Source of the DNA: Sulfurimonadaceae bacterium
Lineage (GTDB): Bacteria > Campylobacterota > Campylobacteria > Campylobacterales > Sulfurimonadaceae
Length of the DNA: 64,000 nucleotides
Assembly: GCA_028683835.1 (NCBI GenBank)
Contig: JAQUHB010000006.1
Location: 1 to 64,000, forward strand
Reading direction: 5' to 3'
Shown one piece after another: positions 37,246-63,201 of the stretch. The notes under the pieces are model-generated. The model was not told the origin of the DNA. It searched no databases and saw only the letters and a list, made by a program, of their open reading frames with translations. Numbering within the stretch: the stretch's first letter is position 1; each line of letters begins with the position of its first letter. The position numbers were made by a program, and so were the translations under genes.

Positions 37246-37264
37246 CACAAACTCCTAAATAAAC

Positions 37265-37278
37265 TGAATATTCATTCA
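37265..37278. promoter_or_regulatory. TetR-type operator at the hyp operon promoter
   Basis: A 14-bp palindrome reading TGAATGAATATTCA on the minus strand (TGAAT-N4-ATTCA), nine bases downstream of the predicted -10 (37288-37293). It differs by one base from the site before hydA (54391) and by two from that before the TetR gene (57218). Its position just after the start of transcription fits a repressor site. Confidence 0.65.
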
Positions 37279-46409: not shown

Positions 46410-48693
46410 ATTTCTCTCCATTTTTTAATGCATAGTAGATCTGTCCAAGAGCAATAGAGCCATCATTGACAGGTGTTGTTTTTTGTATATAGTATCGCAA
46501 TTTTCTTTGTTCAAATTTTTGTCTAAGAAGATTGACAAGAACTTTATTTTGAAAAACACCGCCGCTTAGAACAATGGGTAGGAAAGGATATTTTTGCGCT
46601 ATCTCCAATATGATATTTGCAAGAGTAATGATAAATCTCGAACATACTTCCTCTTTTTGCCTGACATATAAGAGCTCTTGTATCATAGAACTGATATCAA
46701 TTTCACCATCTTTAAGAGAATAACTAAATCCTTTTTCGCTTTCAATCTTTGTTGCAAAAGACTCTACAAGGAGACCGCTTTCTCCCTCATATCCCACTAT
46801 TTGCGAAATTCCACACAAAGAAGCCACTGCGTCAAAAACTCTTCCGACAGAACTTGTATAAGGTGAATTCAAACTCTTTTTCCACATTACATGTAGAGCT
46901 TTTATCTCATCTACGCCAAAACTTTTTACCGTCTCATTTTCTAGTGTTAAAATTTCATCAAGTGTATAGATATCAAACAACAGTGAAAGTGCCACACGTC
47001 TTGGCTCTTTGACCGCTTTCTCTCCTCCAAGGAGACGAAATGGCTTGATATGGTACACTCTCTCACCCTTTTTACAATCTGCCAAAAGCACCTCTCCACC
47101 CCAAAGTGTGCGATCATCTCCATAACCCGTGCCATCAAAACAAAATGCCAATACTGTTTCATCTAGATTGTACTCAGCCATACATGCAAGAGCGTGAGCA
47201 TAATGATGTTGCACTTCTAAAAGCTGAATATTTGGATTTTCTTTGACTATCTGTTTTGCCCATTTAGTCGTTTCATACTGTGGATGTTGATCACATACGA
47301 TGATATCGGGCTCAAACTCATAAAACTCTTTAAAAGTTTGAAGTGTTCTTGTAAAATATTCAAAGGCCTCTAAAGAATTTAAATCGCCGATATGAGGTGA
47401 TAAGATGATGTTTTCATCAAACGCAAGTGCGAGAGTATTCTTTTGATTTGCACCCACGGCCAAGATTTTCTTACTGCTTTTTTGAGGCAACAAAAGACTC
47501 TTTGGTGCATAACCTCGAGAATGTCGCATAACAATCGTCTCATCTGCGCTTTGTATCACAACGCTGTCATCACAACCATTTATGATTTCTCTATCGTAAG
47601 TGAGAACGGCATCCACCACAGAGCCAAGTTTTAAAAAGATATCTTTCTCATCTATGATAATAGGCTCGTCACTCAAGTTTGCACTTGTCGCAACTATTGG
47701 AGTTTGAAGCTCTTGTAAAAGCCTTACATGTAAGGGCGTATAAGGCAAAAAAACGCCGATTCTATCGATATTTGGAGCTACAAATTTTGAAAGTTTTGAA
47801 AGTGTTGTATGAGATTTTTTTTCTACTATGACGATTGGACGTTCATGACTTAAGATGAGCGCTTTCTCTTTTTCGTTGATATCAGTTTCTCTTTCTATAG
47901 TCTGCATATTTTCAAACATCACTGCCAAAGGCTTGCTTGGACGTTTTTTTTTCTCTCGAAGTGAAGACACCGCTACATCACTCAAAGCATCACACACGAT
48001 ATGAAAACCGCCTATGCCTTTGATAGCTACTATTTTTGCCTCTTTAATTAGCTTACAGGTAATCGTTATGGCTTCAGAGGAAGTTGCTATTTGTTTGCCA
48101 TCACGATTTAAAAGAGCGAGCGTCGGACCACAGTTAAAACAGCTGATAGGTTCTGCGTGGTAGCGTCTGTTCGAGGGATCTTCATACTCAGTTTGACACT
48201 CTTTACACATCGTAAACTTTTTCATTGATGTATTTTTTCTGTCATAAGGAAGTGATCTTATAATGGTGTATCTCGGTCCACAGTCGGTGCAGTTGATAAA
48301 GGGGTACATGTATCTGCGATTATGCGGATCTTGCATCTCCATTTTGCATGTTTCACATAAAGAGATATCAGGAGAAATCATTGTAAAAACAGAGGAGTTT
48401 TTTTGAGATTCTAAAATAGTAAATCCAATAGTATTTGCTGTGGGCAACTCTTCAACATGCAAAGAGTCAATGCGGCTAAGCGGCGGCGGATTTTTTCGCA
48501 AAGTATGAAGAAATCTTTCTATCGCCGCACTTTCCCCCTGAAGCTCGATACTTACTCCATTAGAATCATTTAATATAAATCCGCAAAGCTCCTCTTTTAG
48601 AGCCAATTGATACACAAAAGGACGAAATCCGACCCCTTGAACGATTCCCTTGACTCTGACTTGAACTCTTTTAGAGATAGACTCCACCGACAA
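46402..48693 (-). CDS. hypF: Carbamoyltransferase HypF
   Basis: A cytosolic enzyme (763 aa) that activates carbamoyl phosphate and passes the carbamoyl group to HypE for the CN- ligands. The full domain order is present: acylphosphatase (VKGIVQGVGFRPFVYQLAL), zinc fingers (CETCKMEMQ...CTDCGPRYT and CKECQTEYE...CFNCGPTL), YrdC-like domain (IKGIGGFHIVCDALSD), and Kae1-like domain (VQHHYAHALACMAEY with metal His, then FDGTGYGDDRTLWGGEV and SGGVFQNKVLVNLL). The start is TTG 48693 or a nearby GTG, overlapping hydE; there is no clear ribosome site, so translation is probably coupled. A TTACATGTAA is at 47724. Confidence 0.95.
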   Translation of the reverse strand: MSVESISKRVQVRVKGIVQGVGFRPFVYQLALKEELCGFILNDSNGVSIELQGESAAIERFLHTLRKNPPPLSRIDSLHVEELPTANTIGFTILESQKNSSVFTMISPDISLCETCKMEMQDPHNRRYMYPFINCTDCGPRYTIIRSLPYDRKNTSMKKFTMCKECQTEYEDPSNRRYHAEPISCFNCGPTLALLNRDGKQIATSSEAITITCKLIKEAKIVAIKGIGGFHIVCDALSDVAVSSLREKKKRPSKPLAVMFENMQTIERETDINEKEKALILSHERPIVIVEKKSHTTLSKLSKFVAPNIDRIGVFLPYTPLHVRLLQELQTPIVATSANLSDEPIIIDEKDIFLKLGSVVDAVLTYDREIINGCDDSVVIQSADETIVMRHSRGYAPKSLLLPQKSSKKILAVGANQKNTLALAFDENIILSPHIGDLNSLEAFEYFTRTLQTFKEFYEFEPDIIVCDQHPQYETTKWAKQIVKENPNIQLLEVQHHYAHALACMAEYNLDETVLAFCFDGTGYGDDRTLWGGEVLLADCKKGERVYHIKPFRLLGGEKAVKEPRRVALSLLFDIYTLDEILTLENETVKSFGVDEIKALHVMWKKSLNSPYTSSVGRVFDAVASLCGISQIVGYEGESGLLVESFATKIESEKGFSYSLKDGEIDISSMIQELLYVRQKEEVCSRFIITLANIILEIAQKYPFLPIVLSGGVFQNKVLVNLLRQKFEQRKLRYYIQKTTPVNDGSIALGQIYYALKNGEKYE

Positions 48694-50596
48694 CAGCGTT
48701 CTCCTTGCCTATTGGATAGTTCATATTTAAAAGCGGCGGTGTAAGTTTTAGGTTTCTTTGCATTCTGCTAAAAAGTGACTGATTAGCAAAATGAGCGCCA
48801 CAAAGGATGATATGCTTGGCTTTAGTTTTTGCCTGTATCTCTTTGATAAGTTCACTAAAGTAATCTCCCAAAGACTCAAAGATAGAATAACTCAACATCA
48901 CGCTCTCAACTCCACCAAGTTGATAACTGATGATACTCGATAAAAATGCAATATGATCAAAGCGATTGTCTTTGACATGCGTATCTATCTGAATGCCACC
49001 CTTGCCTATAAATTTTAAAGCCTCTTTTGTCACGCCACGCATCGTTTCATCTTCAATTCCAAGCACAATGGCAGTAGCCACAAAAAGGTCAACCTCTCCT
49101 TTTTTCTCTAAAGCTTCCAGTTTTTCATATACTAGAGGCATCTTCGTTTGAAGATTGGTAATCAGACGATCTGAGCCTTCTCTAAGTGTTCTCATTTTTT
49201 CTAAAAGATCCGCTGCGTTAAAATCTTTCTGCGGCACTATTTTTATAACTTGTTTTCCGTCATAGTATAAAAATGAAGCTTCTTCATCAAAATAAACTCC
49301 GACACAACCGCTTCCAAAAAGCTGGTGCTCGGCCACAACTGACATAAATGAAGCCGTGTCTTGATGCATAAGTGACTGATTTGAATGCCATTGTTCAGCG
49401 TCATGACCTTCTAAAACCATCACTTTTGTAGCTTTAGTAGAGTTAAAATGCTCCATCTTATCAAAGAGCATCTCTTCCTTCACTTTTGTACCTATAAGAC
49501 CATGTGCAACGCTCAGTGTCTCAGTTGCAGGTGAGAGTGAAGAGGGAAAACTCACTCTCTCACCTGAAGCAATAAACTGAATATCTTTATTGATAAAAAG
49601 TCTCATATCTTCTTGGTGTGTCACTTCTAAATCATAATCCATTAAAATATCCGCACTTGCATCTTTCTCTACATCTTCATAAGAGATATAATCGATTCCA
49701 AGTGTTTGCAACTCTTTGGCGAGTAAAATGCTAAATCCCTCATCAGGATATTTTACATCTGTAGTATTACCTACTTCACGTTTAAGTTCCTCATCTTTTA
49801 TAGCTACATGTAAGATAGGACGCTCAATGCTAAGAAGTGCATTAAACTCCTGTTCTATCAAAGAAAGATAATCTGTGATCTTTTTTGCATTTATCACCAT
49901 AAGTACGGAGTTATTATTGGTCGCGCTTGTCTTATAAAAAACTCTGTATCCAAAAGTAGTCTTGATGAGCACTCTTTTATTGTCTTTTAATGCTTTTGCA
50001 CTCACTTCAAACATAGTTCGAAAACTACCAGCATCATTTGCATAGCGTTCACTATTTTTATTCATCAGTCTCACTGCCGTACCACATTTATGACAACTGT
50101 TCATATGATGATTTTCTCGTATCCCTACATGATTCATCTCACTTTCACAATCACTGCATGGCTGAATAAAACGAAATGAAGTGTTTTTACGTTCATAAGG
50201 GAAAGTGTTTAAAAAACTATATTTGCCTCCGCAATGTGTACATGAAGTAAATGGATAGTAGTATCTTCTCGAAGAGGGATCAAACATCTCTTTTTGACAA
50301 GATGGACAAAGTCCAAGACCCAAAGGATAATTATCTGTATATGCAGGGAGATCATGAGGCTCGCCTTCGGCTGTATAGTGATCACTTTTGGTTAAAAAAC
50401 ATGATGCAGGAAGTCTTGCTGCGATAGACTCTAGACAGTGTTGTAACTCTGTATTTTCAGAATCAAGTGCAAAAATAAGTCTGCCTTTTTTATTGGCTGC
50501 AACAGCATTTATACCAAATTCTCTAATGATACTGACAATATAATTTTTTATATAAACTTGAGAAGAGATTGTATGAAGTTCAAGCACGAATGCCAT
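48671..50596 (-). CDS. hydE: HydE-like protein, degenerate HypF paralogue
   Basis: A 641-residue cytosolic protein that follows HypF's domain order but has lost its catalytic motifs. The N-terminal acylphosphatase-like part lacks the VQGVGFRP loop. The zinc-finger block is intact (CPSCQKEM...CTHCGGKYS, then CSDC...CHKCG). The YrdC-like and Kae1-like parts are barely recognisable (CGAHFANQSLFSRM and VVGGVYL at the end; no HHxxH). I recall HydE of Wolinella succinogenes as a HypF-related protein needed for hydrogenase formation. It is located between hydC and the real hypF, so it is probably an accessory for HydABC assembly. Confidence 0.7.
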   Translation of the reverse strand: MAFVLELHTISSQVYIKNYIVSIIREFGINAVAANKKGRLIFALDSENTELQHCLESIAARLPASCFLTKSDHYTAEGEPHDLPAYTDNYPLGLGLCPSCQKEMFDPSSRRYYYPFTSCTHCGGKYSFLNTFPYERKNTSFRFIQPCSDCESEMNHVGIRENHHMNSCHKCGTAVRLMNKNSERYANDAGSFRTMFEVSAKALKDNKRVLIKTTFGYRVFYKTSATNNNSVLMVINAKKITDYLSLIEQEFNALLSIERPILHVAIKDEELKREVGNTTDVKYPDEGFSILLAKELQTLGIDYISYEDVEKDASADILMDYDLEVTHQEDMRLFINKDIQFIASGERVSFPSSLSPATETLSVAHGLIGTKVKEEMLFDKMEHFNSTKATKVMVLEGHDAEQWHSNQSLMHQDTASFMSVVAEHQLFGSGCVGVYFDEEASFLYYDGKQVIKIVPQKDFNAADLLEKMRTLREGSDRLITNLQTKMPLVYEKLEALEKKGEVDLFVATAIVLGIEDETMRGVTKEALKFIGKGGIQIDTHVKDNRFDHIAFLSSIISYQLGGVESVMLSYSIFESLGDYFSELIKEIQAKTKAKHIILCGAHFANQSLFSRMQRNLKLTPPLLNMNYPIGKENAVVGGVYL

Positions 50597-50649: not shown

Positions 50650-51351
50650 TTATTTCTCTTTAACGAACTTACTTCCACCAAAAACAATAGCAATGTCAGC
50701 CTCTTTCCAAAAAATAGTTCTCCATACTTGATAGTAGATATGGAATACAACCCAAGTAATAATATACCACATCGTATAATGATGCACTATTCTAACATCC
50801 ATGATCGTCCCACCACAAACAACACGTGTCCAATCAGTAGAAATATGTAGCATCCAAGGCCACCATTTTCCAATAGAACTAAGTCCTGATTCAAGTCCTG
50901 AAACATAGAGTTGCAATCCCGTGAGAAGCATCCATGCTAAAAGTAGATGAAATATTAGAAAATAAACTGAGTTAAAACTATCACTATGTGTAGAATCAAA
51001 TTTCTTACGTTTATTTAATGTTGCAAGGTTAATGACAACTTCAATAAACTCAGCAATATTTTTCCCTGTAGGAATTACTTTTTTATATGCTTTTTCAAAA
51101 CGGCTGAAAAAGAAAAGATAGGCAATTACTACTGAAGTGACATCAAATATGATAGCTACGATAAAATGTCCCCATCTGTTCCAAGCCATCACATATTTGT
51201 CAACTGCACCATCAGCGATAAAAGTTTGATAGTAAGGATGACCAATATAGAGACCTGTAATGATTGCGACAACCATAGAGATCGCATTAGCCCAATGGAT
51301 AATGCGTCCCGTAGTCGTCATACGCTTGACCTGTTTATATTCAGAGCTCAT
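50650..51351 (-). CDS. hydC: Hydrogenase cytochrome b subunit HydC
   Basis: The membrane anchor and di-haem b-type cytochrome (233 aa) that passes electrons from HydA to the quinone pool. There are four hydrophobic segments (about 18-40, 62-80, 128-150 and 185-212), with paired His residues for haem (RIIHWANA, GHFIVAI, IFHLLLAW, RIVHHYTMWYI). Length is standard for the HyaC/HydC type. It lies 11 bases after hydB and about 50 before hydE in the leftward operon. Confidence 0.93.
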   Translation of the reverse strand: MSSEYKQVKRMTTTGRIIHWANAISMVVAIITGLYIGHPYYQTFIADGAVDKYVMAWNRWGHFIVAIIFDVTSVVIAYLFFFSRFEKAYKKVIPTGKNIAEFIEVVINLATLNKRKKFDSTHSDSFNSVYFLIFHLLLAWMLLTGLQLYVSGLESGLSSIGKWWPWMLHISTDWTRVVCGGTIMDVRIVHHYTMWYIITWVVFHIYYQVWRTIFWKEADIAIVFGGSKFVKEK

Positions 51352-51361
51352 AATAATCTCC

Positions 51362-53140
51362 TTAGATACTGCATTGCGTATCTATTTTATAGACACCTAA
51401 CTCTTTACCTTTTGTATCAACAACGTGAACGGCACAAGCGATACAAGGGTCAAAACTGTGAATGGTACGAATAATTTCAAGCGGCTGCTCAGGGTTAGCG
51501 ACTTTCGTACCAATAAGACTCGCTTCATAAGCACCCATTCTTCCTTTATAATCACGAGGTCCAGCATTCCAAGTAGAAGGCACAACTGCTTGATAATTCT
51601 CAACTTTTCCATTTTCTACACGAACCCAGTGACCAAGAGAACCACGAGGTGCTTCAGCTAGTCCCATACCTTTTGTTTTGACACTCACTTTATCAAAATC
51701 AAATTCTGTCCAAGTTCTAAGATCACCAGAAGCCGCATTTTTAGCTAACTCATCTGCCCACTCGACCATGATATCTGCCATCAATTCTGTTTCAACAGCA
51801 CGAGCCGCAGTTCTACCAACTGTACTAAAAAGCACTGAAATAGGAAGATTACCGCGTTTTAGAAAGTTTGTCACATATTTTGTGATACGCTCATCTTTGC
51901 GTGCAACACCGATAACCATACGAGCTAACGGTCCAACCTCTACGCGAGTATCGTTATAGATAGGTGTTTTTATCCAACTGTATTTTTCGCCAGTTTTAAG
52001 ATATGCGATACCATCTGAACGTTTGTCTAGTCCTGTATAGTGAGGAATAGTTTGTCCGTCATAAGGGTGAAGAGGTTTTTGACCCTCATACCAAGAGTGA
52101 GTGACATCTTCAGCTATTTTATTTTGATCAACATCTTGTACTTTAGAGATATCACCACCATAAACTATACCGCTTGGAAAGAGTGTTTTTGCTTTATAAA
52201 AGCCTGTGTCATCCAAACGGAAATCTCCATAACTCATATAGTTAAGTAAACCGCCGCCAGTTCCACCAACACCCTTTTTCTCCATAAGTTCAGTAAAAGT
52301 TGCTTTAGAATCAGTCGCTTCTTCAGCATACATCGTCCCAGCCATATAAACATCAGGAAGATATGCTTCTTTAACAAACTTTGTCCCATCTGCAAGTAAC
52401 TGTTTAAAAAGTGCTATACGTGCAGGATTTTCAATATCTTGCACACAAGTCACACCACCAACAACGATGGACTGAGGATGCGGGTTTTTACCACCGAAGA
52501 TCGCTTGCATTTTTGCTAATTCACGTTGAATATCAAGTGCTTTTAGGTAGTGTGCTACGCCGATAAGGTTTTGTTCAGGAGTGAGTTTATAATGTTTATT
52601 ACCCCAATATCCATTTCCAAATATTCCAAGACGACCCTGTTTCACAAAGTTTGCCACACGTGTTTGTATCTCTTTAAATTCACCCTCGCCATCAGTATAT
52701 GGATTTACTCCAGCTACTGTAGCCCATTTTCTAGCCTCAGCAGCCGTCTTTGCAGGATCGGCAGAAAGTGCCGAAACGACATCGACAAAGTCAAGCGCAT
52801 GAAGATGGTAAAAATGTACTAAGTGGTCATGCATATAAAGTGAACCTTGGATAAGGTTACGAACAATACGTGCATTTTTTGGAATAGTAACACCAAACGC
52901 ATCTTCTACAGCTTCAATCGATCTTTGATAGTGTGTTCCCGTACAAACACCACAAATACGCATTGCCAAAAGTCCACAATCACGAGGATCTCTTCCTTTT
53001 AAAATTGTTTCTATTCCACGGAACATCGTAGAAGAACTATAAGCATCTATGATGGTATTATTTTCATCAATAACAGCCTCAATTCTTAAATGCCCTTCAA
53101 TACGTGTAATTGGGTCTACTACTATATGCTTATTACTCAT
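51362..53140 (-). CDS. hydB: Group 1 [NiFe] hydrogenase large subunit HydB
   Basis: The catalytic subunit (592 aa) of a periplasm-facing uptake hydrogenase (H2 to 2 H+ + 2 e-). The proximal nickel motif is RICGVCTGTH (Cys63, Cys66) and the distal one DPCIACAVH (Cys566, Cys569, His572). After His572 there are 20 residues, so maturation should remove a C-terminal tail, as in group 1 enzymes. It overlaps hydA by one base. The subunit is exported through the Tat signal of HydA. Similar to Wolinella and Helicobacter HydB. Confidence 0.95.
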   Translation of the reverse strand: MSNKHIVVDPITRIEGHLRIEAVIDENNTIIDAYSSSTMFRGIETILKGRDPRDCGLLAMRICGVCTGTHYQRSIEAVEDAFGVTIPKNARIVRNLIQGSLYMHDHLVHFYHLHALDFVDVVSALSADPAKTAAEARKWATVAGVNPYTDGEGEFKEIQTRVANFVKQGRLGIFGNGYWGNKHYKLTPEQNLIGVAHYLKALDIQRELAKMQAIFGGKNPHPQSIVVGGVTCVQDIENPARIALFKQLLADGTKFVKEAYLPDVYMAGTMYAEEATDSKATFTELMEKKGVGGTGGGLLNYMSYGDFRLDDTGFYKAKTLFPSGIVYGGDISKVQDVDQNKIAEDVTHSWYEGQKPLHPYDGQTIPHYTGLDKRSDGIAYLKTGEKYSWIKTPIYNDTRVEVGPLARMVIGVARKDERITKYVTNFLKRGNLPISVLFSTVGRTAARAVETELMADIMVEWADELAKNAASGDLRTWTEFDFDKVSVKTKGMGLAEAPRGSLGHWVRVENGKVENYQAVVPSTWNAGPRDYKGRMGAYEASLIGTKVANPEQPLEIIRTIHSFDPCIACAVHVVDTKGKELGVYKIDTQCSI

Positions 53141-54372
53141 TATGCTTCTCCTCCATCATCTTTTTTACCACCCACTGCACTCGCTATTGCATGGATTCCA
53201 ATACCAATACTTGCTGCTGTAAGAAGCCCTAAACCAAATTCATCAACCGTTTTTTCAACACCACCTGTTGGTGCTTTTATTTTCGCATTTGCCATTGGAC
53301 GCTCATATGCATATTTATCCCAAAAATCAGGTTCAGAACAGCCGATACAGCCACGCCCAACACCGATTGGCCAGTTCACAGCTTCGTTGTAACGTACGAT
53401 TGAACAGTTGTTAAAAGTCATAGGACCTTTACATCCCATTTTATAGAGACAAAAGTTATTTTTTGCACCCTCATCACCCCACTCTTCTACATATTCACCC
53501 GCATCAAAGTGTGCACGTCTTTCACAGTTATCATGAATTCTATAACCAAATGCAAATTTAGGACGTAATAAAGAATCCAGTTCAGGAAGTGTTCCTGTTA
53601 AAACATAGTGCATTACAACACCAACCATGTTTACAGGGTTAGCAGGACATGCCGGGATATTTACCAAAGGTTTGCCTTTGACAACATCCATAACACCCAC
53701 AGCACCCGTTGGGTTTGGAGCAGCAGCTGGAATACCGCCAAATGTTGCACAAGCACCTACTGCTATAACCGCTGCAGCATCTTTTGAAACACGCATCAAG
53801 TGATCATGAAAAGTCTCACCGCTAGCACCAATAGTCCCATACTGACCATGCATACCCATAGGAATAGAACCTTCAACAAAAAGCAAAAACTTGCCTTTAA
53901 AAGTTTCTATTGCTTCATCAAGCTGTTTTTCTGCCTGAAAGCCTGAAGCAGCTTGCAGTGTTTCGTGATACTCAAGAGAGATAATGTCAAGTACAATCTC
54001 ATCTATTTTCGGTCCATCTGAACGAAGAAGTGCTTCCGAGTTTCCTGCACAATCTTGGAGCTCAAGCCAAATAACTGGAGCACGGTTCATGAGTTCAGCA
54101 GCTTCTGCTACTAAAGGTGAAAACATTGGAGGTAGCATAAGCATCGCTGTTGTAGCACTTACCCATTTCATAAAATCACGTCTGTCAATACCATTATCAT
54201 TTAGTAATCCACTAAAATCCAATCTATTTGCAGGTTGTGAAGCACGTAGCTCACTTAATCTTGTTTGACACTTTTCAAACAGATCCAAATAATAAGACTC
54301 ACCTTTGTTCGTCTCAACTCGAGCACTCTTTGAAGTAAACAGTTTCTTTACCCCTTCTATTCTATCTGACAT
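53140..54372 (-). CDS. hydA: Group 1 [NiFe] hydrogenase small subunit HydA
   Basis: The electron-transfer subunit (410 aa) with three iron-sulfur clusters, exported by Tat. The twin-arginine motif RRDFMKW is at 64-70, preceded by about 60 residues, a longer N-region than in E. coli HyaA. Cluster ligands: Cys108 in DCAGN (Asn111 replaces the usual second Cys), GACATFGG, the C of CPANP, distal HDNCERRAHFD with FCLYKMGCKGP, and medial NNCSIVRYNEAV with GRGCIGCSEP. A C-terminal membrane helix (about 375-398, LGLLTAASIGIGIHAIASAV) anchors it next to HydC. The start has GGAG six bases upstream, and an operator-like palindrome lies 19 bases upstream of the ATG. Confidence 0.94.
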   Translation of the reverse strand: MSDRIEGVKKLFTSKSARVETNKGESYYLDLFEKCQTRLSELRASQPANRLDFSGLLNDNGIDRRDFMKWVSATTAMLMLPPMFSPLVAEAAELMNRAPVIWLELQDCAGNSEALLRSDGPKIDEIVLDIISLEYHETLQAASGFQAEKQLDEAIETFKGKFLLFVEGSIPMGMHGQYGTIGASGETFHDHLMRVSKDAAAVIAVGACATFGGIPAAAPNPTGAVGVMDVVKGKPLVNIPACPANPVNMVGVVMHYVLTGTLPELDSLLRPKFAFGYRIHDNCERRAHFDAGEYVEEWGDEGAKNNFCLYKMGCKGPMTFNNCSIVRYNEAVNWPIGVGRGCIGCSEPDFWDKYAYERPMANAKIKAPTGGVEKTVDEFGLGLLTAASIGIGIHAIASAVGGKKDDGGEA

Positions 54373-54390: not shown

Positions 54391-54404
54391 TGAATGTTCA
54401 TTCA
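54391..54404. promoter_or_regulatory. TetR-type operator at the hydABC promoter
   Basis: A 14-bp palindrome, TGAATG-TT-CATTCA on the plus strand (TGAATGAACATTCA on the gene strand), nine bases downstream of a predicted -10 and 19 bases before hydA. It matches the hyp operon operator in 13 of 14 positions, with the identical 9-base offset. Confidence 0.65.
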
Positions 54405-54473: not shown

Positions 54474-55733
54474 TTAATGTGTAGTACAGACGGAACAAAC
54501 GTCAAAACTTTTAAATACAAGCTCTGCTATCTCAATGTTTTCAAGCCCTATCATGGCCTTTTGCGAGACACCATGATTTTCGTTCACCCCTCCGCATAGA
54601 TTCCATTGAGTTGGCGTTATTATCTCATAGCTTTTGATAAGAGAATCTTCGATAACTACCTTATGGATGAGCGTCCCTCTAGCTGCTTCCACCGCTGAAG
54701 AGCCGCTTGAGTTCAAGCTTGTAATATCCATTTTTGGTTTTATATAGGATGGTTCACTTAAGTCTAACTCCGTAATAAGTGATTTACAATGCAACAAAAG
54801 TTGTGAGATCTCACATACCCTTGCCAAGATTCTTGTAAATATACTGTCTGTATATTTTTTATGTGCATCTTTTATCAATGGAGTTTTTTTCACCATGGCT
54901 CTAGACAAAGGACCCACTTCATAATATTTGCCATGATAGTGAACACTTTTAGCAAATGAAGTAGTCGATACAGATTCAATAACATCTTCTAAAAATAGAT
55001 TATGCATCACTCTGGTTTTAATCGATTTTCCTTTAGTAAAATAACTACTTTCTCCAAAGACTATAAATCTGTCATAACTCTTTCCGTATTCCAGCCAACC
55101 GTTTTTTTCTATAAGATGAAGCACATCTACTAAATCCCCGCTTTTACTTAAGACATTCATCACATTATCGCAATCTTGTAACATTTGTACATCAACATCA
55201 AGGAGATTTTTTTCAAAAAATTGAATTGTCTCATCTATATAATGCCCTAGTTTGATAAGATCCATTTGTGTGATCTCACAAACGACTCCGCCAACAATTG
55301 CATAAGAGGTATGAGGATACTGACCGCCAAAGAGTGCTATAGCTTTTCCCATTAGCTGAGATGGAATAACTGCTTTCATCACATTCTGTTTGAATCCAAA
55401 AAGAGGAAAGATAGTCAAGTAAAACCATTTAAAATGGTTTTGTATCAATTCAAAATTAAGCGTCAATTCTCTTATGATCTTCGCTTTGTTTGAGATCTCT
55501 ATGCTCTCATAACAATCTTCTAAAGCCCGAACAGTGGCAATAAGATGTGCATGTCCGCATATACCGCAAACTCTTGGGTTTATGACTAAAGCATCTAAAG
55601 GTGATTTACCTTTAAGGATATCTTCTATATGACGTGTGGACATAAAATCAACATCTACGTTATCAATTTTGTTGTTTTTAAAATGAAAATTGAGTTTAGC
55701 TTCACCCTCTATTTTTTCTATTAATTTAATCAT
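54474..55733 (-). CDS. HupV-like group 2 hydrogenase large subunit without C-terminal tail
   Basis: A soluble [NiFe] hydrogenase large subunit (419 aa). Both nickel motifs are present: RVCGICGHAH (Cys56, Cys59) and DVCSVCTTH (Cys413, Cys416). The protein ends exactly at that His419, so no protease processing is needed. That is characteristic of H2-sensing regulatory hydrogenases (HupV/HoxC); group 2 members in Campylobacterota can also be of the 2d type with unknown role. It overlaps the small subunit gene by eight bases and follows a TetR gene. H2 sensing is an inference. Confidence 0.78.
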   Translation of the reverse strand: MIKLIEKIEGEAKLNFHFKNNKIDNVDVDFMSTRHIEDILKGKSPLDALVINPRVCGICGHAHLIATVRALEDCYESIEISNKAKIIRELTLNFELIQNHFKWFYLTIFPLFGFKQNVMKAVIPSQLMGKAIALFGGQYPHTSYAIVGGVVCEITQMDLIKLGHYIDETIQFFEKNLLDVDVQMLQDCDNVMNVLSKSGDLVDVLHLIEKNGWLEYGKSYDRFIVFGESSYFTKGKSIKTRVMHNLFLEDVIESVSTTSFAKSVHYHGKYYEVGPLSRAMVKKTPLIKDAHKKYTDSIFTRILARVCEISQLLLHCKSLITELDLSEPSYIKPKMDITSLNSSGSSAVEAARGTLIHKVVIEDSLIKSYEIITPTQWNLCGGVNENHGVSQKAMIGLENIEIAELVFKSFDVCSVCTTH

Positions 55734-56607
55734 CTAATAACTTCTTTTGTAATCTATCAATTTTAAAGGCTTTCGTGATTCCAGCAAGTGTTAAATATAC
55801 TCGCTTGTTTACACCCACGGGTAGGAATTCTGGAATACCCATATTTTTTTTTGTACTAAAAAGATTTTGTTTTGGAAAACTCGGTTCGGTACATCCCATA
55901 CATGGAAGTCCTGCTCTTGTCTTAGAGTTTATCTCGTTCCAAAGTATCTTATTACAACTGCCATGTGTCAAAGGACCTTGACAACCATGATCGTAAAACA
56001 TACATCCCTCAAGTTCACCGAAATGATGATTATCTACTTTATACTCAAAATATTCATTTCTTGTGCATCCATTGTGCACGGTATATGCAAAATAGTCTTT
56101 AGGTCTTAAATAGCTATCAAGTTTTAAACTTAACCCTTTTTTGATGGCATAAAGAGTACTTACTAATGTTTCAGGATGAATTGGACAACCTGAGATAGAG
56201 ATTGTTTTTTCAAAAAGATGATTATATTTTTCTGTACGCTTATCTTCTCTAAAATGCAGACCTGAAACATTTTTATAATGACTCTCTTTAAAGATACCGC
56301 CAAAAGTGGCGCATGTACCGACAGTAACTATCTTTGACACTATCTTTGAATATTTTTTAATGATGTCAATACCTAAAACATCTGCTTTTATAAAATCATC
56401 TGCTATAGCCCCTTCAATAAGTAAGACATCACAAGCAATATCTTGCGAAATAATATCTTCTAAGGAATACTCAGAATCGATAATGGGATGATATATAAAT
56501 TCAAAATCATTAAAAAACTGTTCTAAGTGTGGATAGTTTAAAAAAGAGTGCGTATTTCCATTGCAGGTCATTAAACCAAGCCATAGAATCCTCACTTTTT
56601 TTTTCAT
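55726..56607 (-). CDS. HupU-like group 2 hydrogenase small subunit
   Basis: The iron-sulfur subunit (293 aa) of a soluble group 2 hydrogenase. It has no Tat signal, so the enzyme is cytosolic. Ligand-bearing segments are LMTCNGNTHSF (Cys15; Asn18 at the place of the usual second proximal Cys), GTCATFGGI, SGCPIHPETL, HNGCTRNEYFEY with GCMFYDHGCQGP, and GLPCMGCTEPSF. The start is three bases after the TetR stop (start 56607, TetR end 56610), so the two are co-transcribed. The same Cys-to-Asn change occurs in cyanobacterial HupS, as I recall. Confidence 0.85.
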   Translation of the reverse strand: MKKKVRILWLGLMTCNGNTHSFLNYPHLEQFFNDFEFIYHPIIDSEYSLEDIISQDIACDVLLIEGAIADDFIKADVLGIDIIKKYSKIVSKIVTVGTCATFGGIFKESHYKNVSGLHFREDKRTEKYNHLFEKTISISGCPIHPETLVSTLYAIKKGLSLKLDSYLRPKDYFAYTVHNGCTRNEYFEYKVDNHHFGELEGCMFYDHGCQGPLTHGSCNKILWNEINSKTRAGLPCMGCTEPSFPKQNLFSTKKNMGIPEFLPVGVNKRVYLTLAGITKAFKIDRLQKKLLDD

Positions 56608-56609
56608 GG

Positions 56610-57197
56610 TTATACACTTAACGCTTTATATATGTTATCTGTTACATCATCTATATATTCATTGAGATTTTTTGGCAGTACGTTTTCACCCTGTAAAAAT
56701 ACCATTCCACCCAAATAACCCATAAAAAGTCCAAATGCATTAAAAAAATCTTGATCTCTCAAATCTCCGCATTTGACTCCCTCTTCAAAATAGATCATGA
56801 TCTCCGTTACAAAATCGTTGACACATATCATACCTTCACAGCCATCTTTAAACACTTCCCTCGTTGACAGATAGATTCTTAAAAAATAGTCTAACATCTC
56901 TGGTTTTACTGTAGCAGTCTGAAAATAGATCTCGACAATCTTTCTTGTTTTTTCTTTTGTTGAGATATTTTCTTCATTGATAACTTTTATCTTTTTTCCA
57001 AAATATGAAGACACAAATTTGATGATCTCTTTTGCAAGAAGATCTTTGGATTTAAAATAGTTATACATATTTCCCACACTCATCTTTAAAGAGAGGGCAA
57101 TATCTGGAATAGTTGTATTATAAAAACCTTTTGTAGCAAAAAGTCCTAGTGATGCCAACATTATCTGTTCTTTTTTTTGCTGTTTTTTATCAGTCAA
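56610..57197 (-). CDS. TetR-family regulator encoded with the HupUV-like hydrogenase
   Basis: A 195-residue regulator. The N-terminal helix-turn-helix (about 10-55) includes MLASLGLFATKGFYNTTIPD and LKMSVGNMYNYFKSKDLLAK; the C-terminal part is a diverse ligand-binding domain with Cys residues at about 122, 126 and 141. The start is TTG 57197 with GGAAG upstream. A perfect 22-bp palindrome covers its promoter (57214-57235). Its core, TGAAT-N4-ATTCA, recurs at the hyp and hyd promoters, so it is the best candidate repressor of all three operons. It is directly followed by the HupUV-like genes. Confidence 0.82.
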   Translation of the reverse strand: MTDKKQQKKEQIMLASLGLFATKGFYNTTIPDIALSLKMSVGNMYNYFKSKDLLAKEIIKFVSSYFGKKIKVINEENISTKEKTRKIVEIYFQTATVKPEMLDYFLRIYLSTREVFKDGCEGMICVNDFVTEIMIYFEEGVKCGDLRDQDFFNAFGLFMGYLGGMVFLQGENVLPKNLNEYIDDVTDNIYKALSV

Positions 57198-57213
57198 AAT
57201 ATTTGCTTCCTTT

Positions 57214-57239
57214 ATACTGAATAATTATTCAGTATTGTA
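57214..57239 (-). promoter_or_regulatory. Operator and -10 of the TetR-HupUV operon
   Basis: A perfect 22-bp palindrome (57214-57235) with core TGAATAATTATTCA (57218-57231), directly followed upstream by a -10-like TACAAT (57234-57239 on the minus strand). Being about 17 bases before the TetR TTG start and covering the transcription start, it fits autoregulation. The core shares the TGAAT-N4-ATTCA pattern with 37265 and 54391. Confidence 0.7.
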
Positions 57240-57266
57240 TCAGCAATTCTAAATATTAGCAATTAT

Positions 57267-57677
57267 TTATACAATTAAAAAAGAGGTAACATTATCAATA
57301 CACTGGTCATATCGATCTCTATCTTCAATCATTTCAAAATTATATGTAAGCATAGAATAGATGGAATAATCAACTTTTTTCTCATACAGATCTTCCATAA
57401 GAGCAATAAGTATCTGCGGCTGGATATGGTGGCTGAGATTTGAGCTGTTTTTTAAAAGAGAACAAGCAAGGGCATAATGATTTTCTCCATCATAACAAGC
57501 ATCCACAAAAATGATCTCATCGGCGTCTAAAACCTCTAAAATAAGCTCAGGAGTGAGACAAAACACACTGATAAGTTTGATATCTTTATGAGCAAAGGAT
57601 TGGAGTTTTTTGATAACTTCTAGCCCAAAGCCATCTTCTCCCCGAAGCTCATTTCCATAACCGATGATGATTTTCAA
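57267..57677 (-). CDS. hoxW: Hydrogenase maturation protease HoxW
   Basis: A cytosolic endopeptidase (136 aa) that trims the HoxH C-terminal tail. Conserved blocks are GYGNELRGEDGFG, IIFVDACYD and NLSHHIQPQILIAL, corresponding to the three metal ligands. It is four bases after hoxH and closes the leftward Hox operon. The short size is typical of HoxW-type proteases. All ligands appear intact, in contrast to HydD. Confidence 0.85.
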   Translation of the reverse strand: MKIIIGYGNELRGEDGFGLEVIKKLQSFAHKDIKLISVFCLTPELILEVLDADEIIFVDACYDGENHYALACSLLKNSSNLSHHIQPQILIALMEDLYEKKVDYSIYSMLTYNFEMIEDRDRYDQCIDNVTSFLIV

Positions 57678-57680
57678 AGA

Positions 57681-59105
57681 TCAATTTCTTTTTAATATTT
57701 TTATGATTTTTTTATGATGGTCACGAAGTTCTATTTGTGAAGAGACGATTCCAAGAGCATGGGTTGAACAGCTCAAACATGGATCAAAACAGCGTATGAC
57801 GGCTTCAACTCGGTTGAGTGCTCCATCTGTGATATCTTCGGGGTCTATAAAGGCTTTTGCCACTTGTTTCACTCCCGCGTTCATCGCAAGATTATTGTTC
57901 CCTGTGGCGATGATGAGATTTACTTTTTCTATGATGCCGTTATGATCCACTTCATAGTCATGAAAAAGCGTCCCGCGCGGTGCTTCAGAACATCCCACTC
58001 CTCTTTTGTTGTTTATCTTTCCTCTTGCAAAAATATTATCACTCAAACTCTCTTCATCTCGCAAAAGTTGTTCTATTTTTTCAAGTCCATAGATAATCTC
58101 AATGATCCTCGCATAGTGATAATAAAAGGAGTTTTGTACAGGTTTGCCCTGCCCGAGAGCTTTAAAGTTCTGAAGCTCCTCATCCGCAAGCGGAGTACCG
58201 CATTTTGTAGCGATATTGAGTCTTGCAAGCGCTCCGACTCTATACATCCCTTGTGGATATCCAAGAGGTTTATAATAGGGTGATTTGAGGTAGCTGTCAT
58301 CTTCTACGGCTTCGCCTATGAACTCTTTATAGTTTTGAGGATCGATGGCTTCGTTTAAAATATTGCCCTCACTGTCGATAAAACGAAGCACTCCATCATA
58401 ATGCTCCAAACTTCCATCTTCGCCTACAAGCGCCATAAAAAGTGATGGAAAGCTGGCAAAACTTTCTATCTCTTTTTGAAATTTATGGAGATTTTCTTTA
58501 AAATATTTGAGTGTATTTTGCGCGATTTGCATTGCTTTTGGAATCTCTTGAAGAAGTTTTTCTTTGACTTCAATTTCAAGAATATTGCTCACTCCTCCGG
58601 GAATTATACCCGTGGGATGGATTCTTTTACCCGCAAGTGCTTCTATGATCTTTTGTCCAAAGGCTCTAAGTTCTATCCCATCTTTTGCCATCTGCGGATG
58701 GGTCTGCATCAGTTTAAAGATATTTCTATCCTCTTTTGGTGCATCAAATCCATACACAAAATCGGGACTGCTGAGATGATAAAAGTTAAGTGTATGTGAT
58801 TGGATAATCTGTGCGAGATTGACTATTTTTCTGATGTTGATGGCCGCTTGCGGCGGTGTGACACAAAGAAGTGTGTCACATGCCTTTGAAGAAGAGATGA
58901 CATGGCTGACTGGACAGATACCGCAGGTTCGAGCCGTAAGAGCGGGCATATCGGTGTAAATCTTTCCTTCACAGAACTTCTCAAACCCTCGATATTGTGT
59001 TACATGCAAGCGTGCATCTTCTACTGTTCCATCTTCATTTAGATCTATCGTTATCTTTGCATGACCCTCTATGCGAGTCACAGGATCGATGGTGATTGTT
59101 TTCAT
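57681..59105 (-). CDS. hoxH: NAD-linked bidirectional hydrogenase large subunit HoxH
   Basis: The [NiFe] catalytic subunit (474 aa) of a group 3d bidirectional hydrogenase. The proximal motif is RTCGICPVSH (Cys61, Cys64) and the distal one FDPCLSCSTH (Cys443, Cys446, His449), followed by 25 residues (starting ALGIV) for HoxW to remove. It overlaps hoxY by four bases (ATGA). Together with HoxEFUY it couples H2 and NAD+/NADH in the cytosol. Confidence 0.93.
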   Translation of the reverse strand: MKTITIDPVTRIEGHAKITIDLNEDGTVEDARLHVTQYRGFEKFCEGKIYTDMPALTARTCGICPVSHVISSSKACDTLLCVTPPQAAINIRKIVNLAQIIQSHTLNFYHLSSPDFVYGFDAPKEDRNIFKLMQTHPQMAKDGIELRAFGQKIIEALAGKRIHPTGIIPGGVSNILEIEVKEKLLQEIPKAMQIAQNTLKYFKENLHKFQKEIESFASFPSLFMALVGEDGSLEHYDGVLRFIDSEGNILNEAIDPQNYKEFIGEAVEDDSYLKSPYYKPLGYPQGMYRVGALARLNIATKCGTPLADEELQNFKALGQGKPVQNSFYYHYARIIEIIYGLEKIEQLLRDEESLSDNIFARGKINNKRGVGCSEAPRGTLFHDYEVDHNGIIEKVNLIIATGNNNLAMNAGVKQVAKAFIDPEDITDGALNRVEAVIRCFDPCLSCSTHALGIVSSQIELRDHHKKIIKILKRN

Positions 59106-59641
59106 TTTCCAAACCTTGTATATTTACTAATATCAATAATTGTACCATTGATAAGAGCGTGTATCATCTCATAGATCGCATCGGCAGGCGTCGGACATCC
59201 GGGAAGAAAATAATCCACTTTGACAGCTTCATGCAAAGGGATTACCCTGTCTAAAAGTTTTGGAACGACAGTGGAAGGATATCTGTTGTCTTTATTGATA
59301 TCTGAGAGTTCAAAATAGCCTCTTTGAAGCACTGCTTCACTTTTGTAAAGATTTTTCATCGCAGAGATATTGCCCGTGATTGCACAGTCCCCAAGAGCTA
59401 AAATAAGTTTGGAATTTGCACGTATTTTTTTGATGATCTCTAAATCATGATCACTGCTAAGAGCGCCTTCAACGATGGTGAGATCTACATTCTCCGGAAA
59501 CTCTTTAGTGTCAACATAAGGGCTGTAAAGCACGTCAAAATAGGGAGCGAGTTCTATGAGTCTTTCATCCATATCCAAAAAAGACATATGACATCCGGAA
59601 CATCCATCGAGCCAAATAGTCGCTAAACGTATCTTATTCAT
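59102..59641 (-). CDS. hoxY: Bidirectional hydrogenase small subunit HoxY
   Basis: A short hydrogenase small subunit (179 aa) holding only the proximal cluster. Cys14 and Cys17 (WLDGCSGCHMSF) are both present, unlike in the other two small subunits here, and GDCAIT and PGCPTPAD complete the ligands. It passes electrons to the HoxU diaphorase unit. It overlaps hoxU and hoxH. Confidence 0.92.
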   Translation of the reverse strand: MNKIRLATIWLDGCSGCHMSFLDMDERLIELAPYFDVLYSPYVDTKEFPENVDLTIVEGALSSDHDLEIIKKIRANSKLILALGDCAITGNISAMKNLYKSEAVLQRGYFELSDINKDNRYPSTVVPKLLDRVIPLHEAVKVDYFLPGCPTPADAIYEMIHALINGTIIDISKYTRFGK

Positions 59642-60356
59642 TTTCAGCCCTATTTTTTAGTAGATTGCGGATAATCTCTCTTTTTGTAGTCACATCCTCT
59701 TTTGTGATCTCTTTTTCATAAAGGGCTCCCGTCGGGCAGACATAGACGCATTTACCGCAACTCGTACAGCTTTGTGAATCGATCCAAGGTTCATCCATAT
59801 CGTGAATAATCATAGAATTGATTCCACGCCCACCTATGTTGATGGCATTGGCACCTTCGATTTCATTACAAACTCTCACGCATCTCGAACATAAGATACA
59901 TCTATTTGGGTCATGAACAAAGTTTTTATGTGAGGCATCAATAGCAAATCTTGAGTCAATATAAGGTACTAAAGAGTGGTCAAGCTGTAGTTCAACCGAT
60001 TTGTCTTGAAGTTCACAGTCTCCATTTGCCTCACAGACGCTACATGTATGACTGCGTTCAGAAAAGATCATAGAAAGGATCATCTTTCTGTGCGAATCAA
60101 TTTTTTCAGAGGTTGTAAAGACTTCCATATCCTCTTTAATCTTAGAAGTACAAGCTGGGACAAGCTCGCGAGCTCCTTTGACTTCTACTAAACATAGTCT
60201 GCAAGATCCAACACAACTAAGCCCCTCAAGATAGCAGAGTGTAGGAATAAAAATATCATGTTCTTTTGCAACTTCCAAAAGAGTTTGATCTGACCTCCCT
60301 GTTACCGTGATATCATTGATTTTAAAGCTTTTAACACGTACTTTTTGCTTAATCAT
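59634..60356 (-). CDS. hoxU: Hydrogenase diaphorase iron-sulfur subunit HoxU
   Basis: A 240-residue iron-sulfur protein like the N-terminus of complex I NuoG. An N-terminal [2Fe-2S] domain (TLCYLEGLSCVGSCRLCLVE), the His-Cys segment SHTCSVCEANGDCELQD and two ferredoxin-type clusters (CILCSRCVRVCNE and CTSCGKCVYVCPTG) carry electrons between HoxF and HoxY. I chose ATG 60356 (MIKQKVRV), which overlaps the hoxF stop and has GAAGGGA upstream, rather than the longer frame from 60386. Confidence 0.92.
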   Translation of the reverse strand: MIKQKVRVKSFKINDITVTGRSDQTLLEVAKEHDIFIPTLCYLEGLSCVGSCRLCLVEVKGARELVPACTSKIKEDMEVFTTSEKIDSHRKMILSMIFSERSHTCSVCEANGDCELQDKSVELQLDHSLVPYIDSRFAIDASHKNFVHDPNRCILCSRCVRVCNEIEGANAINIGGRGINSMIIHDMDEPWIDSQSCTSCGKCVYVCPTGALYEKEITKEDVTTKREIIRNLLKNRAENE

Positions 60357-61968
60357 TTTTAATCCCTTCGAGATACTCTGACTCAAAATAGCGTATAGTG
60401 CTCAATACCGGATTTGGAGCAGTTTGTCCAAGTCCGCAGAGGCTTGTCCCTTTGACAACTTTTGAAAGTTCTTTGAGTAGCTCAAAATTTGCTTGTGTTG
60501 CCTCTTTTGCGATATATTTTTCAAGTAAAAGGGTGAGCTGTGTTGTTCCAACTCTGCATGGAACACATTTACCGCATGATGCACTTTTACAAAAATCCAT
60601 AAAAAAGTGCGCTAGCTCTACCATATTGGAACTCTCATCAATGACAATCATTCCACCGCTTCCCATAATGGTTCCAACACTTTTGAGTGAATCATAATCG
60701 ATAGAGAGATCTAGAAATTGTGTAGGAATACATCCACCGCTTGGACCTCCTGTTTGGATTGCTTTGAGAGCTTTCCCATCGCTGACACCGCCTCCAATCT
60801 CAAAGATAAGTTCTCGCAAGGTTATACCCATAGGAACCTCGACTAAACCGGTATTTTTAATATGTCCGGTAAGTGCGAAGATCTTTGTTCCTGTGGACGT
60901 TGGCGTACCGATGTTTTTAAACCACTCTCCGCCATTTTTTAGAATTGAGGGAATATTTGCCAAAGTTTCTACATTGTTGAGTACGGTCGGTTCACCCCAA
61001 AGACCATAGTCGCTTAGATGAGGCGGTTTTTGTCTTGGATTGCCTCGATTTCCTTCGATAGATGCTATAAGCGCCGTAGCTTCTCCACACACGAATGCTC
61101 CGCCTCCAAGACGCACTTCTATATCAAAATCAAATCCGCTATGAGCGATCTGATTTCCTAGTATTCCAAGTTTTCTTGCTTGTTTGATGGCACGATTTAT
61201 TTTCTCAACTGCGATAGGATACTCTGCGCGTACATATATGTATCCTTTTGTCGCTTCGCAGGCGAATCCGGCGATAATCATCCCCTCTAAAACCTTATGT
61301 GGATCAGCTTCCATAAGCGCTCTATCCATAAATGCACCGGGATCTCCCTCATCACCGTTGCAGACGATATATTTTTGGTCACTTTGAACTTTATAAACAC
61401 TTTCCCATTTTTGACCTGTTGGAAATCCGCCGCCGCCTCTGCCACGAAGACCGCTTATTTTGACCTCATTTATGACATCGACTGGCATCATCTCATGCAG
61501 GACATGAAAAAGAGTCGCGTATCCGCCATGAGCGATGTAATCTTCAATATCATTTGGATCTATGATACCGGCGTTTTCTAGGACAATTTTTGTTTGTTTT
61601 GTAAAAAATAGTTGGTTTGTGTCACAAACTTTTAAAGAGTAAGACTTTTGCTCTTCGATGGATGCCACGAGTGCATCCACATCGTCAAGTATAATCTCTT
61701 CATAGAGTGTGTTTTCTTTTGTAGAATTTTTATAGTGTGAAACTAGAGTCCCATTGGCGCAAAGACCGCTGCAGCCAACGCCTTTAACTCTACATCTGTT
61801 TTGTAAGCCTTTATTTTCTATGGCAGTTTTGAGATTTTTTTCAATCTCATCTGCTCCTCGTGATACACAGCTGCTGCCAATACAGACTCTCAGCTCTTCT
61901 ACAATACTTGCTTCATCACATCGCTTACAATTTGCCAGTTCCTCTAGCTCTAAAAGTGAGGTTATCAT
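60349..61968 (-). CDS. hoxF: NADH-binding diaphorase subunit HoxF
   Basis: The flavoprotein (539 aa) that exchanges electrons with NAD(H). An N-terminal thioredoxin-like [2Fe-2S] part (CIGSSCVSRGA with GVGCSGLC) precedes the NuoF-like core: NADH site GLRGRGGGGFPTGQKW, FMN-binding CNGDEGDPGAFMDR, the SLBB domain and the [4Fe-4S] site SCGKCVPCRVGTTQ with SLCGLGQTAPNPV. It overlaps hoxE by four bases and hoxU by eight. Confidence 0.94.
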   Translation of the reverse strand: MITSLLELEELANCKRCDEASIVEELRVCIGSSCVSRGADEIEKNLKTAIENKGLQNRCRVKGVGCSGLCANGTLVSHYKNSTKENTLYEEIILDDVDALVASIEEQKSYSLKVCDTNQLFFTKQTKIVLENAGIIDPNDIEDYIAHGGYATLFHVLHEMMPVDVINEVKISGLRGRGGGGFPTGQKWESVYKVQSDQKYIVCNGDEGDPGAFMDRALMEADPHKVLEGMIIAGFACEATKGYIYVRAEYPIAVEKINRAIKQARKLGILGNQIAHSGFDFDIEVRLGGGAFVCGEATALIASIEGNRGNPRQKPPHLSDYGLWGEPTVLNNVETLANIPSILKNGGEWFKNIGTPTSTGTKIFALTGHIKNTGLVEVPMGITLRELIFEIGGGVSDGKALKAIQTGGPSGGCIPTQFLDLSIDYDSLKSVGTIMGSGGMIVIDESSNMVELAHFFMDFCKSASCGKCVPCRVGTTQLTLLLEKYIAKEATQANFELLKELSKVVKGTSLCGLGQTAPNPVLSTIRYFESEYLEGIKND

Positions 61969-62438
61969 GAGAGTATCTCCTCTATTTTTTCTAGGGTCTC
62001 ATCAATAGTAAGTTTGCCATATGTCTTATTATCACAAATCATGACCGGCGCGATTGAGCAGGAACCTACACATCTAGCACTCAAAAGTGAGAGAAGATTA
62101 TCGTTTGTTGTCTGGGTGACTTTGATGGCAAATCTAGTTTCAAGTGCCGCAAGAATCTCTTTTGCACCTTTAATATAACAAGCAGTCCCAAGACAAACGA
62201 CTAAAGTATGCTTACCTTGAGGTTTGAGAGTAAAACGGTGATAAAAAGTTGCCACGCCGTAAACTTTAGAGTAAGGCGCCTTGAGACGTTTTGCTATAAA
62301 TTTGAGGGCATCTCTATCAAGGTAGCCAAAAGTTTCTTGTGCTATATGTAAGACCTCAAGAAGCGCACTTTTTTCATAACCAAGCTTTCTCATAGCCTGA
62401 TCTATTATCTTATATCTGCTATCCACTATATCAGCCAT
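61965..62438 (-). CDS. hoxE: Hydrogenase diaphorase subunit HoxE
   Basis: A NuoE-like [2Fe-2S] thioredoxin-fold protein (157 aa), first gene of the leftward hoxEFUYHW operon. The cluster ligands are in VCLGTACYIKGA and ARCVGSCSIAPVM. It probably links the HoxFU diaphorase to other electron carriers such as ferredoxin. The ATG has GGAG upstream, and a -10 element lies at 62475-62480. Confidence 0.92.
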   Translation of the reverse strand: MADIVDSRYKIIDQAMRKLGYEKSALLEVLHIAQETFGYLDRDALKFIAKRLKAPYSKVYGVATFYHRFTLKPQGKHTLVVCLGTACYIKGAKEILAALETRFAIKVTQTTNDNLLSLLSARCVGSCSIAPVMICDNKTYGKLTIDETLEKIEEILS

Positions 62439-62480: not shown

Positions 62481-62617
62481 CAAGATTTTTCTTACAAGAT
62501 AGACACATTTAATTAGAGATTATATATAAACTTAGAAAAAAATTGTTCCATTCCCTATAATATAGTCATTTATGAGACTAAAAAAAGGAATAAAGGGAGT
62601 TGAATCATTTGAAGATG

Positions 62618-63051
62618 ATAGGTACAACGGTAAGCTGGGTTTTGTTATAGTGATATTAATCTACTTTGATTTTTACAAATCAACTCTAGCGAAACAGTAG
62701 CATTGTAAGACGCTAACCATCTGTTTCTTGCTACCAGGTTGGGTTTACAAGCTACTTATATTACTATAAATACTGGTGGTCTCTTACACCGCCGTTTCAC
62801 CCTTACCACTTATTTAAACGCATAAAGAGACAAAGTCCCTTTATTGCTACGCTAGCCGCTGTGGCACTGAAGTACAAAAAAGCTTCCGCTTTTTCACAAT
62901 TCAGTGTACAGAGCAATCAGCATAAATGGCGGTCTATTCTCTGTTGCACTTTCCCTCGCATTACTGCGGCCATTCGTTAAATGGAACCCTGTCTTACGGT
63001 AGCCCAGACTTTCCTCTTGAAATAGATCAAGCATCAACTCATTGTACCTAT
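62618..63051 (-). ncRNA. rnpB: RNase P RNA
   Basis: The catalytic RNA of RNase P, which trims tRNA 5' ends. On the minus strand the P4-region hallmark AGAGGAAAGTCTGGGCT lies near the 5' end (about 63000-63016), GAAACGGCGGTGTAAGAGACC follows in the middle, and ACAAAACCCAGCTTACCG near the 3' end. The ends pair as helix P1: ATAGGTACAATG (63040-63051) with CGTTGTACCTAT (62618-62629), eleven Watson-Crick pairs plus one G-T. The length of about 434 bases fits a bacterial A-type RNA. The exact mature ends are estimates. It fills most of the gap between the hox promoter and the TetR gene. Confidence 0.93.
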
Positions 63052-63097: not shown

Positions 63098-63174
63098 GAA
63101 CAAGTGTTCTTTTTTTACATAAGAATATATTAACACTTGTTCATATATAATTTTAGAACAAAGAACATTTGTTC
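63098..63174. promoter_or_regulatory. Three phased TetR-type operators
   Basis: Three copies of GAACA-N2-TGTTC: 63098-63109 and 63163-63174 are perfect, 63131-63142 has one mismatch. Their centres are 33 and 32 bases apart, that is three helical turns. The first two are also part of a 15-base inverted repeat (63094-63108 and 63132-63146). They lie between rnpB and the rightward TetR gene, most likely its autoregulatory sites. Confidence 0.6.
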
Positions 63175-63201
63175 ATATAACTGACTTGTAAGGAGGCTTC
63201 A

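Follow-up and report, generated by a model that had tools for sequence, protein, structure and literature searches.

A TetR-family regulator encoded with a tail-less HupUV-like hydrogenase: a probable H2 sensor with a predicted operator at hydrogenase promoters

Organization of the tetR-hupU-hupV locus

The window analyzed in this work, a stretch of 64,000 nucleotides from a Sulfurimonadaceae bacterium, carries on its minus strand a series of genes in the order tetR, hupU, hupV, hydA, hydB, hydC, two HypF-related genes and a protease gene. The tetR gene (positions 56610-57197) encodes a TetR-family regulator of 195 amino acids, and its stop codon is separated by 2 bases from the ATG of a hupU-like gene (55726-56607; PF01058, PF14720) for the small subunit of a soluble group 2 [NiFe]-hydrogenase, followed by a hupV-like gene (54474-55733; PF00374) for a large subunit that lacks the C-terminal tail. 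The genes downstream are hydA (53140-54372; TIGR00391, E 4e-132), hydB (51362-53140; NF033181, PF00374) and hydC (50650-51351; PF01292), which encode the small, large and cytochrome b subunits of an uptake hydrogenase, and then the gene of a HypF-related protein with a zf-HYPF finger (48671-50596; PF07503), hypF (46402-48693; PF22521, PF17788, PF01300) and hydD, which encodes a hydrogenase maturation protease (45852-46421; PF01750). The same strand carries a hyp operon whose first gene encodes a NicO/UreH-like nickel transporter (36604-37248; weak match to PF03824, the same gene standing after the operator site in relatives), together with hypB (35761-36582; PF02492), hypD (34319-35467; PF01924) and hypE (33324-34322; PF00586, PF02769). 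All of these genes from hydA onwards are predicted targets of TetR.

The original prediction had extended the locus to position 57239. Its gene order was confirmed, but positions 57198-57239 are not coding and correspond to the tetR promoter; tetR starts at a TTG codon at 57197, and the frame up to 57239 is interrupted by a stop codon. A promoter-like TTGCTA-17-TACAAT sequence, read by eye, may drive tetR from positions 57234-57262 (minus strand), with its -10 box abutting a palindrome.

When the complete 102-kb contig was searched for domains, neither HisKA nor response-regulator domains were found, which extends to the whole contig the earlier remark that hupUV has no kinase or response regulator nearby. 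The rest of the genome gave 36 HisKA and 59 response-regulator matches, all of them off the hupUV contig.

A soluble group 3 type hydrogenase cluster (57267-62438, minus strand) runs into tetR and encodes NuoE/HoxE, HoxF, HoxU, a small and a large subunit and a protease. The best NCBIfam models for its large and small subunits were VhuA and VhuG, and the cluster was present in just two close relatives (G002 and G084). The RNA gene upstream of this hox cluster is that of a class A RNase P RNA (62615-63050, minus strand; Rfam RF00010, 231 bits), and no tRNA or tmRNA gene was found there.

Features of the TetR and HupUV proteins

The TetR protein shows an N-terminal HTH domain (PF00440, E 6e-11, 42.3 bits versus a cut-off of 24) and an all-helical C-terminal domain, as expected for a member of the TetR family. 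Its AlphaFold model (mean pLDDT 86.7) is an all-helical TetR fold, and the nearest solved folds retrieved with Foldseek were 3ppb, 4me9 and 3vpr. Two cysteines, C120 and C125, were invariant in 47/47 Campylobacterota sequences and also in those Aquificota sequences that cover the site, and the pLDDT falls below 50 at residues 111-115 and 117-120. An invariant and poorly modelled CX4C loop has the look that would be expected of a cofactor, redox or partner site; we found no paper on a redox-sensing Fe-S TetR in the open-access literature searched. The protein resembles the TetR one-component repressors of the FadR (Bacillus), BetI and HapR class in its PF00440 domain, its all-helical fold and a palindromic predicted operator at the promoter, but it differs from them in the invariant CX4C of its ligand domain and in being tied to a hydrogenase and not to a small-molecule pathway. 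The TetR proteins encoded at 63202 and 38032 of the window were rejected as kin of the hupUV-linked TetR, because their alignment to it is poor and neither has the CX4C.

HupV ends with CSVCTTH followed by a stop codon. The claim that the large subunit is tail-less held throughout the alignment, with no C-terminal tail in 49/49 homologues, all of which end at CxxCxx[HQK]. On the other hand, the claim that its last residue is a terminal nickel ligand, His419, was wrong, because eight of the 49 homologues have Gln or Lys there; C56, C59, C413 and C416, the Cys residues of the two CxxC motifs that are the established Ni ligands of [NiFe]-hydrogenases, are invariant in all 49. The alignment of HupU revealed nine invariant Cys plus H178, so that all Fe-S ligands are kept and electron transfer is therefore possible.

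HupUV shares with the group 2b enzymes HoxBC/HupUV (kinase HoxJ/HupT, regulator HoxA/HupR) a soluble heterodimeric structure, a tail-less large subunit, three Fe-S cluster sites and a link to the control of uptake hydrogenase genes. In contrast to group 2b, whose hallmark is a linked PAS histidine kinase plus response regulator, the contig has neither of the two, and a TetR is the fixed neighbour. The RH-type (group 2b) sensors are also described as having Gln in place of a conserved His near the active site (PMC5665086), whereas HupV keeps a His, H63, in at least 90% of 22 sequences at the position that we ourselves assigned as equivalent from that description. The enzyme resembles those of group 2d (HupSL/HuaSL of Campylobacterota, hydrogenase III of Aquifex aeolicus) in being soluble, of group 2 and from the same taxa. 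Campylobacterota orthologues of hupUV have been labelled group 2d (PMC12286921, PMC11406935), and the enzyme of Sulfurimonas is named as 2b in one publication (PMC7952632). In agreement with a group 2d assignment, the HupV profile matched proteins of Aquifex, Aquificaceae, Persephonella and Hydrogenothermaceae within the Aquificota (E 7e-86 to 1e-149). For this group HydDB states: 'Unresolved role. May generate reductant for carbon fixation or have a regulatory role' (PMC5037454).

Conservation and co-inheritance of the trio

Within a set of 150 related genomes, we counted HupV orthologues (threshold E <1e-75) in 67 and TetR orthologues in 69. Both were present in 65 genomes and lay on one contig in 63, and the order TetR-HupU-HupV, with hupU alone in between, was found in all of these 63 checkable genomes; in G126 and G111 the two genes are on separate contigs. 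HupV was found without TetR only in G084 and G040, in both cases at contig ends, and TetR without HupV in G145 (where the contig ends inside hupU), in the fragmentary G056, in G014 and in G060. The adjacency of tetR and hupUV, whose conservation among relatives the original prediction had named as its check, is thus far from chance, and it also occurs in Aquificota.

The trio remained together when its surroundings changed. At five loci (L053, L054, L056, L070 and L084) the uptake hydrogenase lies elsewhere and TetR is still with HupUV. The pairwise distances at 38 loci correlated strongly between TetR and HupU (r 0.86) or HupV (r 0.88) and weakly between TetR and HydA (r 0.25) or HydB (r 0.23), a correlation that is partly due to linkage. 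TetR distances track those of HupUV and not those of HydAB: uptake hydrogenases of different types have taken each other's place, and the trio remained intact throughout. The mean identity was 64% for TetR versus 54% for HupU and 47% for HupV.

A scan of one genome per species (84,980 species) retrieved at least 52 clear TetR orthologues with 54-92% identity to the query, below which there was a gap and then short, weak matches. The orthologues listed include those of Sulfurospirillum, Aliarcobacter, Poseidonibacter, Nautiliaceae, Nitratiruptor, Hydrogenimonas and Aquificota. In Aquificota, Persephonella (L181) has the trio and the hydA site and Hydrogenothermaceae (L188) the trio, whereas in Aquifex/Aquificaceae bins TetR is located behind hypB or before hydA, with the site mostly before hydA and HupV elsewhere. 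HupV was present in 10/10 genomes of the Aquificota set searched for it. Since many of these genomes are metagenome bins, single contigs could be mis-binned.

A predicted operator at the hyd and hyp promoters

A 14-bp palindrome, TGAATNNNNATTCA, occurs in three exact copies in the window, all of them in hydrogenase promoters. The predicted operator before hydA (TGAATGAACATTCA, 54391-54404) lies 18 bases before the ATG, and that before the hyp operon (TGAATGAATATTCA on the minus strand, 37265-37278) lies 16 bases before the first gene, the same place as in relatives. The third copy forms the core (57218-57231) of a 20-bp perfect palindrome before tetR (TACTGAATAATTATTCAGTA, 57215-57234), likewise a predicted operator. 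Judging by the sequence, the palindrome would overlap the target promoters, a trait of TetR repressors, and the 16-18 bases between the end of the site and the start codons of hydA and the first hyp gene, similar before ureH of relatives, are the spacing of a putative repressor site. The whole genome contains 11 copies of TGAATNNNNATTCA versus 4 of the reversed pattern.

The motif was spotted in the window and tested in other genomes afterwards. Since the palindrome before tetR is retained in close relatives only (13/44 with at least 9/10 fixed positions), it was discarded as a general signature and the search was moved to hydA. Within 300 bp upstream of the hydA genes located behind HupV, an exact site was present in 31/40 and a site with at least 9/10 fixed positions in 39/40 (9/10 only in some lineages), the frequency of at least 9 matches in randomly chosen 361-bp segments from these loci being about 4%. 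The hydA genes of TetR-less genomes had an exact site in 0/26 within 500 bp, their sole 9/10 match being 459 bp away; the Fisher p of 6e-11 for exact sites in TetR-bearing versus TetR-less genomes overstates independence because the sequences are related. The contrast holds, however, within genera g1 (G007), g15 (G035) and g21 (G128 and G141 versus G093) and within family f9 (G098, G116 and G144 versus G131), and the hydA site tracks TetR even when hydA and tetR lie apart.

Ten complete or nearly complete TetR genomes contain 20 exact TGAATRNNYATTCA sites, 1-3 per genome, 16 of which are at hydA or the hyp operon (9 before hydA and 7 before ureH or hypB). The other four are located in the hydD-protease gap (G004), behind hupV as judged by coordinates (G017), at a TetR paralogue (G125) and in G114. 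Five of six TetR-less genomes had no exact site, and the two copies in the sixth, G007, are not at hydrogenase genes. These data support the proposal that hyd and hyp are targets of TetR, and such control through the palindrome is very likely, close to settled by the comparative evidence.

A probable H2 sensor with a one-component output

Gene linkage, co-inheritance, a natural hupUV deletion and published expression data all fit H2 sensing via TetR. In G014 (L116 5300-6300) tetR is intact, but a deletion of nearly all of hupUV has left behind tetR just the first part of hupU and the last part of hupV, and the hydA operator is degraded to TTAATCACAATTCA. Sensor and operator would be expected to be lost together if nothing remained to lift the repressor. 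In A. butzleri hDNRA1, RNA-seq revealed 2.3-6.2 fold higher expression of the two hynAB sets with H2 and lower expression of huaSL, that is, group 1b genes went up and group 2d genes down, in a comparison of H2/DNRA with acetate/nitrate where H2 is not the sole difference (PMC12286921). The trio's own promoter is mostly devoid of the site, as expected for a sensor and not for a co-regulated enzyme.

We propose that TetR-HupU-HupV would be an H2 sensor with a one-component output. A TetR dimer would bind the 14-bp palindrome between the promoter and the ribosome-binding site and repress hydABC and the hyp operon, and soluble HupUV would oxidise H2 and hand the signal to TetR, which would then leave its operators, so that uptake hydrogenase and maturation proteins would be made when H2 is present. 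The likeliest route of the signal would be redox, with electrons passing from the HupU Fe-S chain to TetR, directly or via a small carrier, and reducing its invariant CX4C as a dithiol or Fe-S site. We regard this explanation as a whole as probable. HupUV as the H2 input of TetR is likewise the best explanation and a fairly likely one, but the cysteines as the relay are a guess with the chances somewhat against it.

Several observations count against H2 sensing by the trio. The main one is G060 (L117 1763-3950), which has TetR and two sites, one of them exact, but no hupUV, and where TetR may have another input; lineages with a 9/10 site only, and the Aquificaceae bins with TetR and HupUV apart, add to it. 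In S. multivorans, the membrane hydrogenase (MBH) was reported to be constitutive and hupL to be nearly silent, and an H2 sensor was called missing (PMC5357620). Its relative S. diekertiae has the site before hydA, and if tetR and hupSL of S. multivorans share one weak transcript, its hydrogenase would, in our reading, be unrepressed.

G060 and the Aquificaceae bins, where TetR goes with hypB or hydA and not with hupUV, would also suit an arrangement in which HupUV is a catalytic enzyme that provides reductant for carbon fixation (reverse TCA cycle), an older hypothesis for group 2d (PMC5401914, PMC5037454) compatible with the complete set of HupU Fe-S ligands, and in which TetR, receiving no signal from HupUV, is a general regulator of hydrogen metabolism that senses another cue, such as a metabolite or, through its own CX4C, the redox state of the cell. 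However, TetR stays with hupUV when hydA is elsewhere and co-evolves with HupUV and not with HydAB, the operator that marks hyd and hyp is mostly missing from the hupUV promoter, huaSL falls with H2 in A. butzleri (PMC12286921), and HupUV loss in G014 accompanies operator decay, all of which makes a purely catalytic HupUV unlikely.

That TetR is a mere local repressor of hupUV, the hydA palindrome belonging to another regulator, was suggested by its position: Kruse et al. 2017 noticed that hupSL of S. multivorans is immediately preceded by a TetR-like gene and considered it a possible repressor of hupSL (PMC5357620), and the source genus has a palindrome before tetR. Nevertheless, the hydA/hyp palindrome is confined to TetR genomes even within genera and families, is present when hydA is unlinked to tetR and is rarer before tetR itself, and we consider such a local role very improbable. 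The HisKA and response-regulator matches elsewhere in the genome would allow a scheme like that of group 2b, in which HupUV signals to a PAS histidine kinase and a response regulator encoded at a distance and TetR forms a separate layer, but a contig devoid of both, a TetR beside hupUV in every checkable genome and the retained H63, at our assigned position, leave hardly any room for this arrangement.

In the open-access literature searched, we found no paper joining TetR, hupU and a regulatory hydrogenase in Epsilonproteobacteria, and no description of the operator, the regulon or a cross-phylum TetR-HupUV pairing; operator, regulon and phylum-wide TetR pairing go beyond the accounts of group 2d in the papers searched. 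Now that hupUV has a constant partner, and operator and regulon are defined, what group 2d does can be put to a sharp test. If H2 reaches DNA via a single repressor, the bacteria concerned, which at vents and redoxclines are major H2 oxidisers, would signal H2 in a simpler way than by the kinase systems known so far. A wider claim, that group 2d hydrogenases are H2 sensors that reduce the CX4C of a dedicated TetR, a direct enzyme-to-repressor relay replacing the two-component system in Campylobacterota and Aquificota, is tentative and somewhat doubtful.

Other TetR genes and operator-like sites

A second TetR gene of the window (63202-63825, plus strand) has GAACANNTGTTC twice, and once more with one mismatch, in its promoter (window 63098-63825), and this sequence is probably its own, different operator. 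The TetR paralogue of G125 (L241 859-1515), which lacks the CX4C, has an exact TGAATGAATATTCA upstream, that is, the same operator type, and adjoins a divergent rhodanese-like gene. In G060, a flavocytochrome/sulfide-quinone-reductase-like gene in the opposite direction lies between tetR and hydA. Two further operator-like sites of the genome that contains the window are outside hydrogenase loci, one (C49:13745-13758, L131) beside the gene of a small membrane protein before cysteine synthase and the other (C37:28770-28783, L130) flanked by the genes of a radical-SAM activase and of a response regulator.
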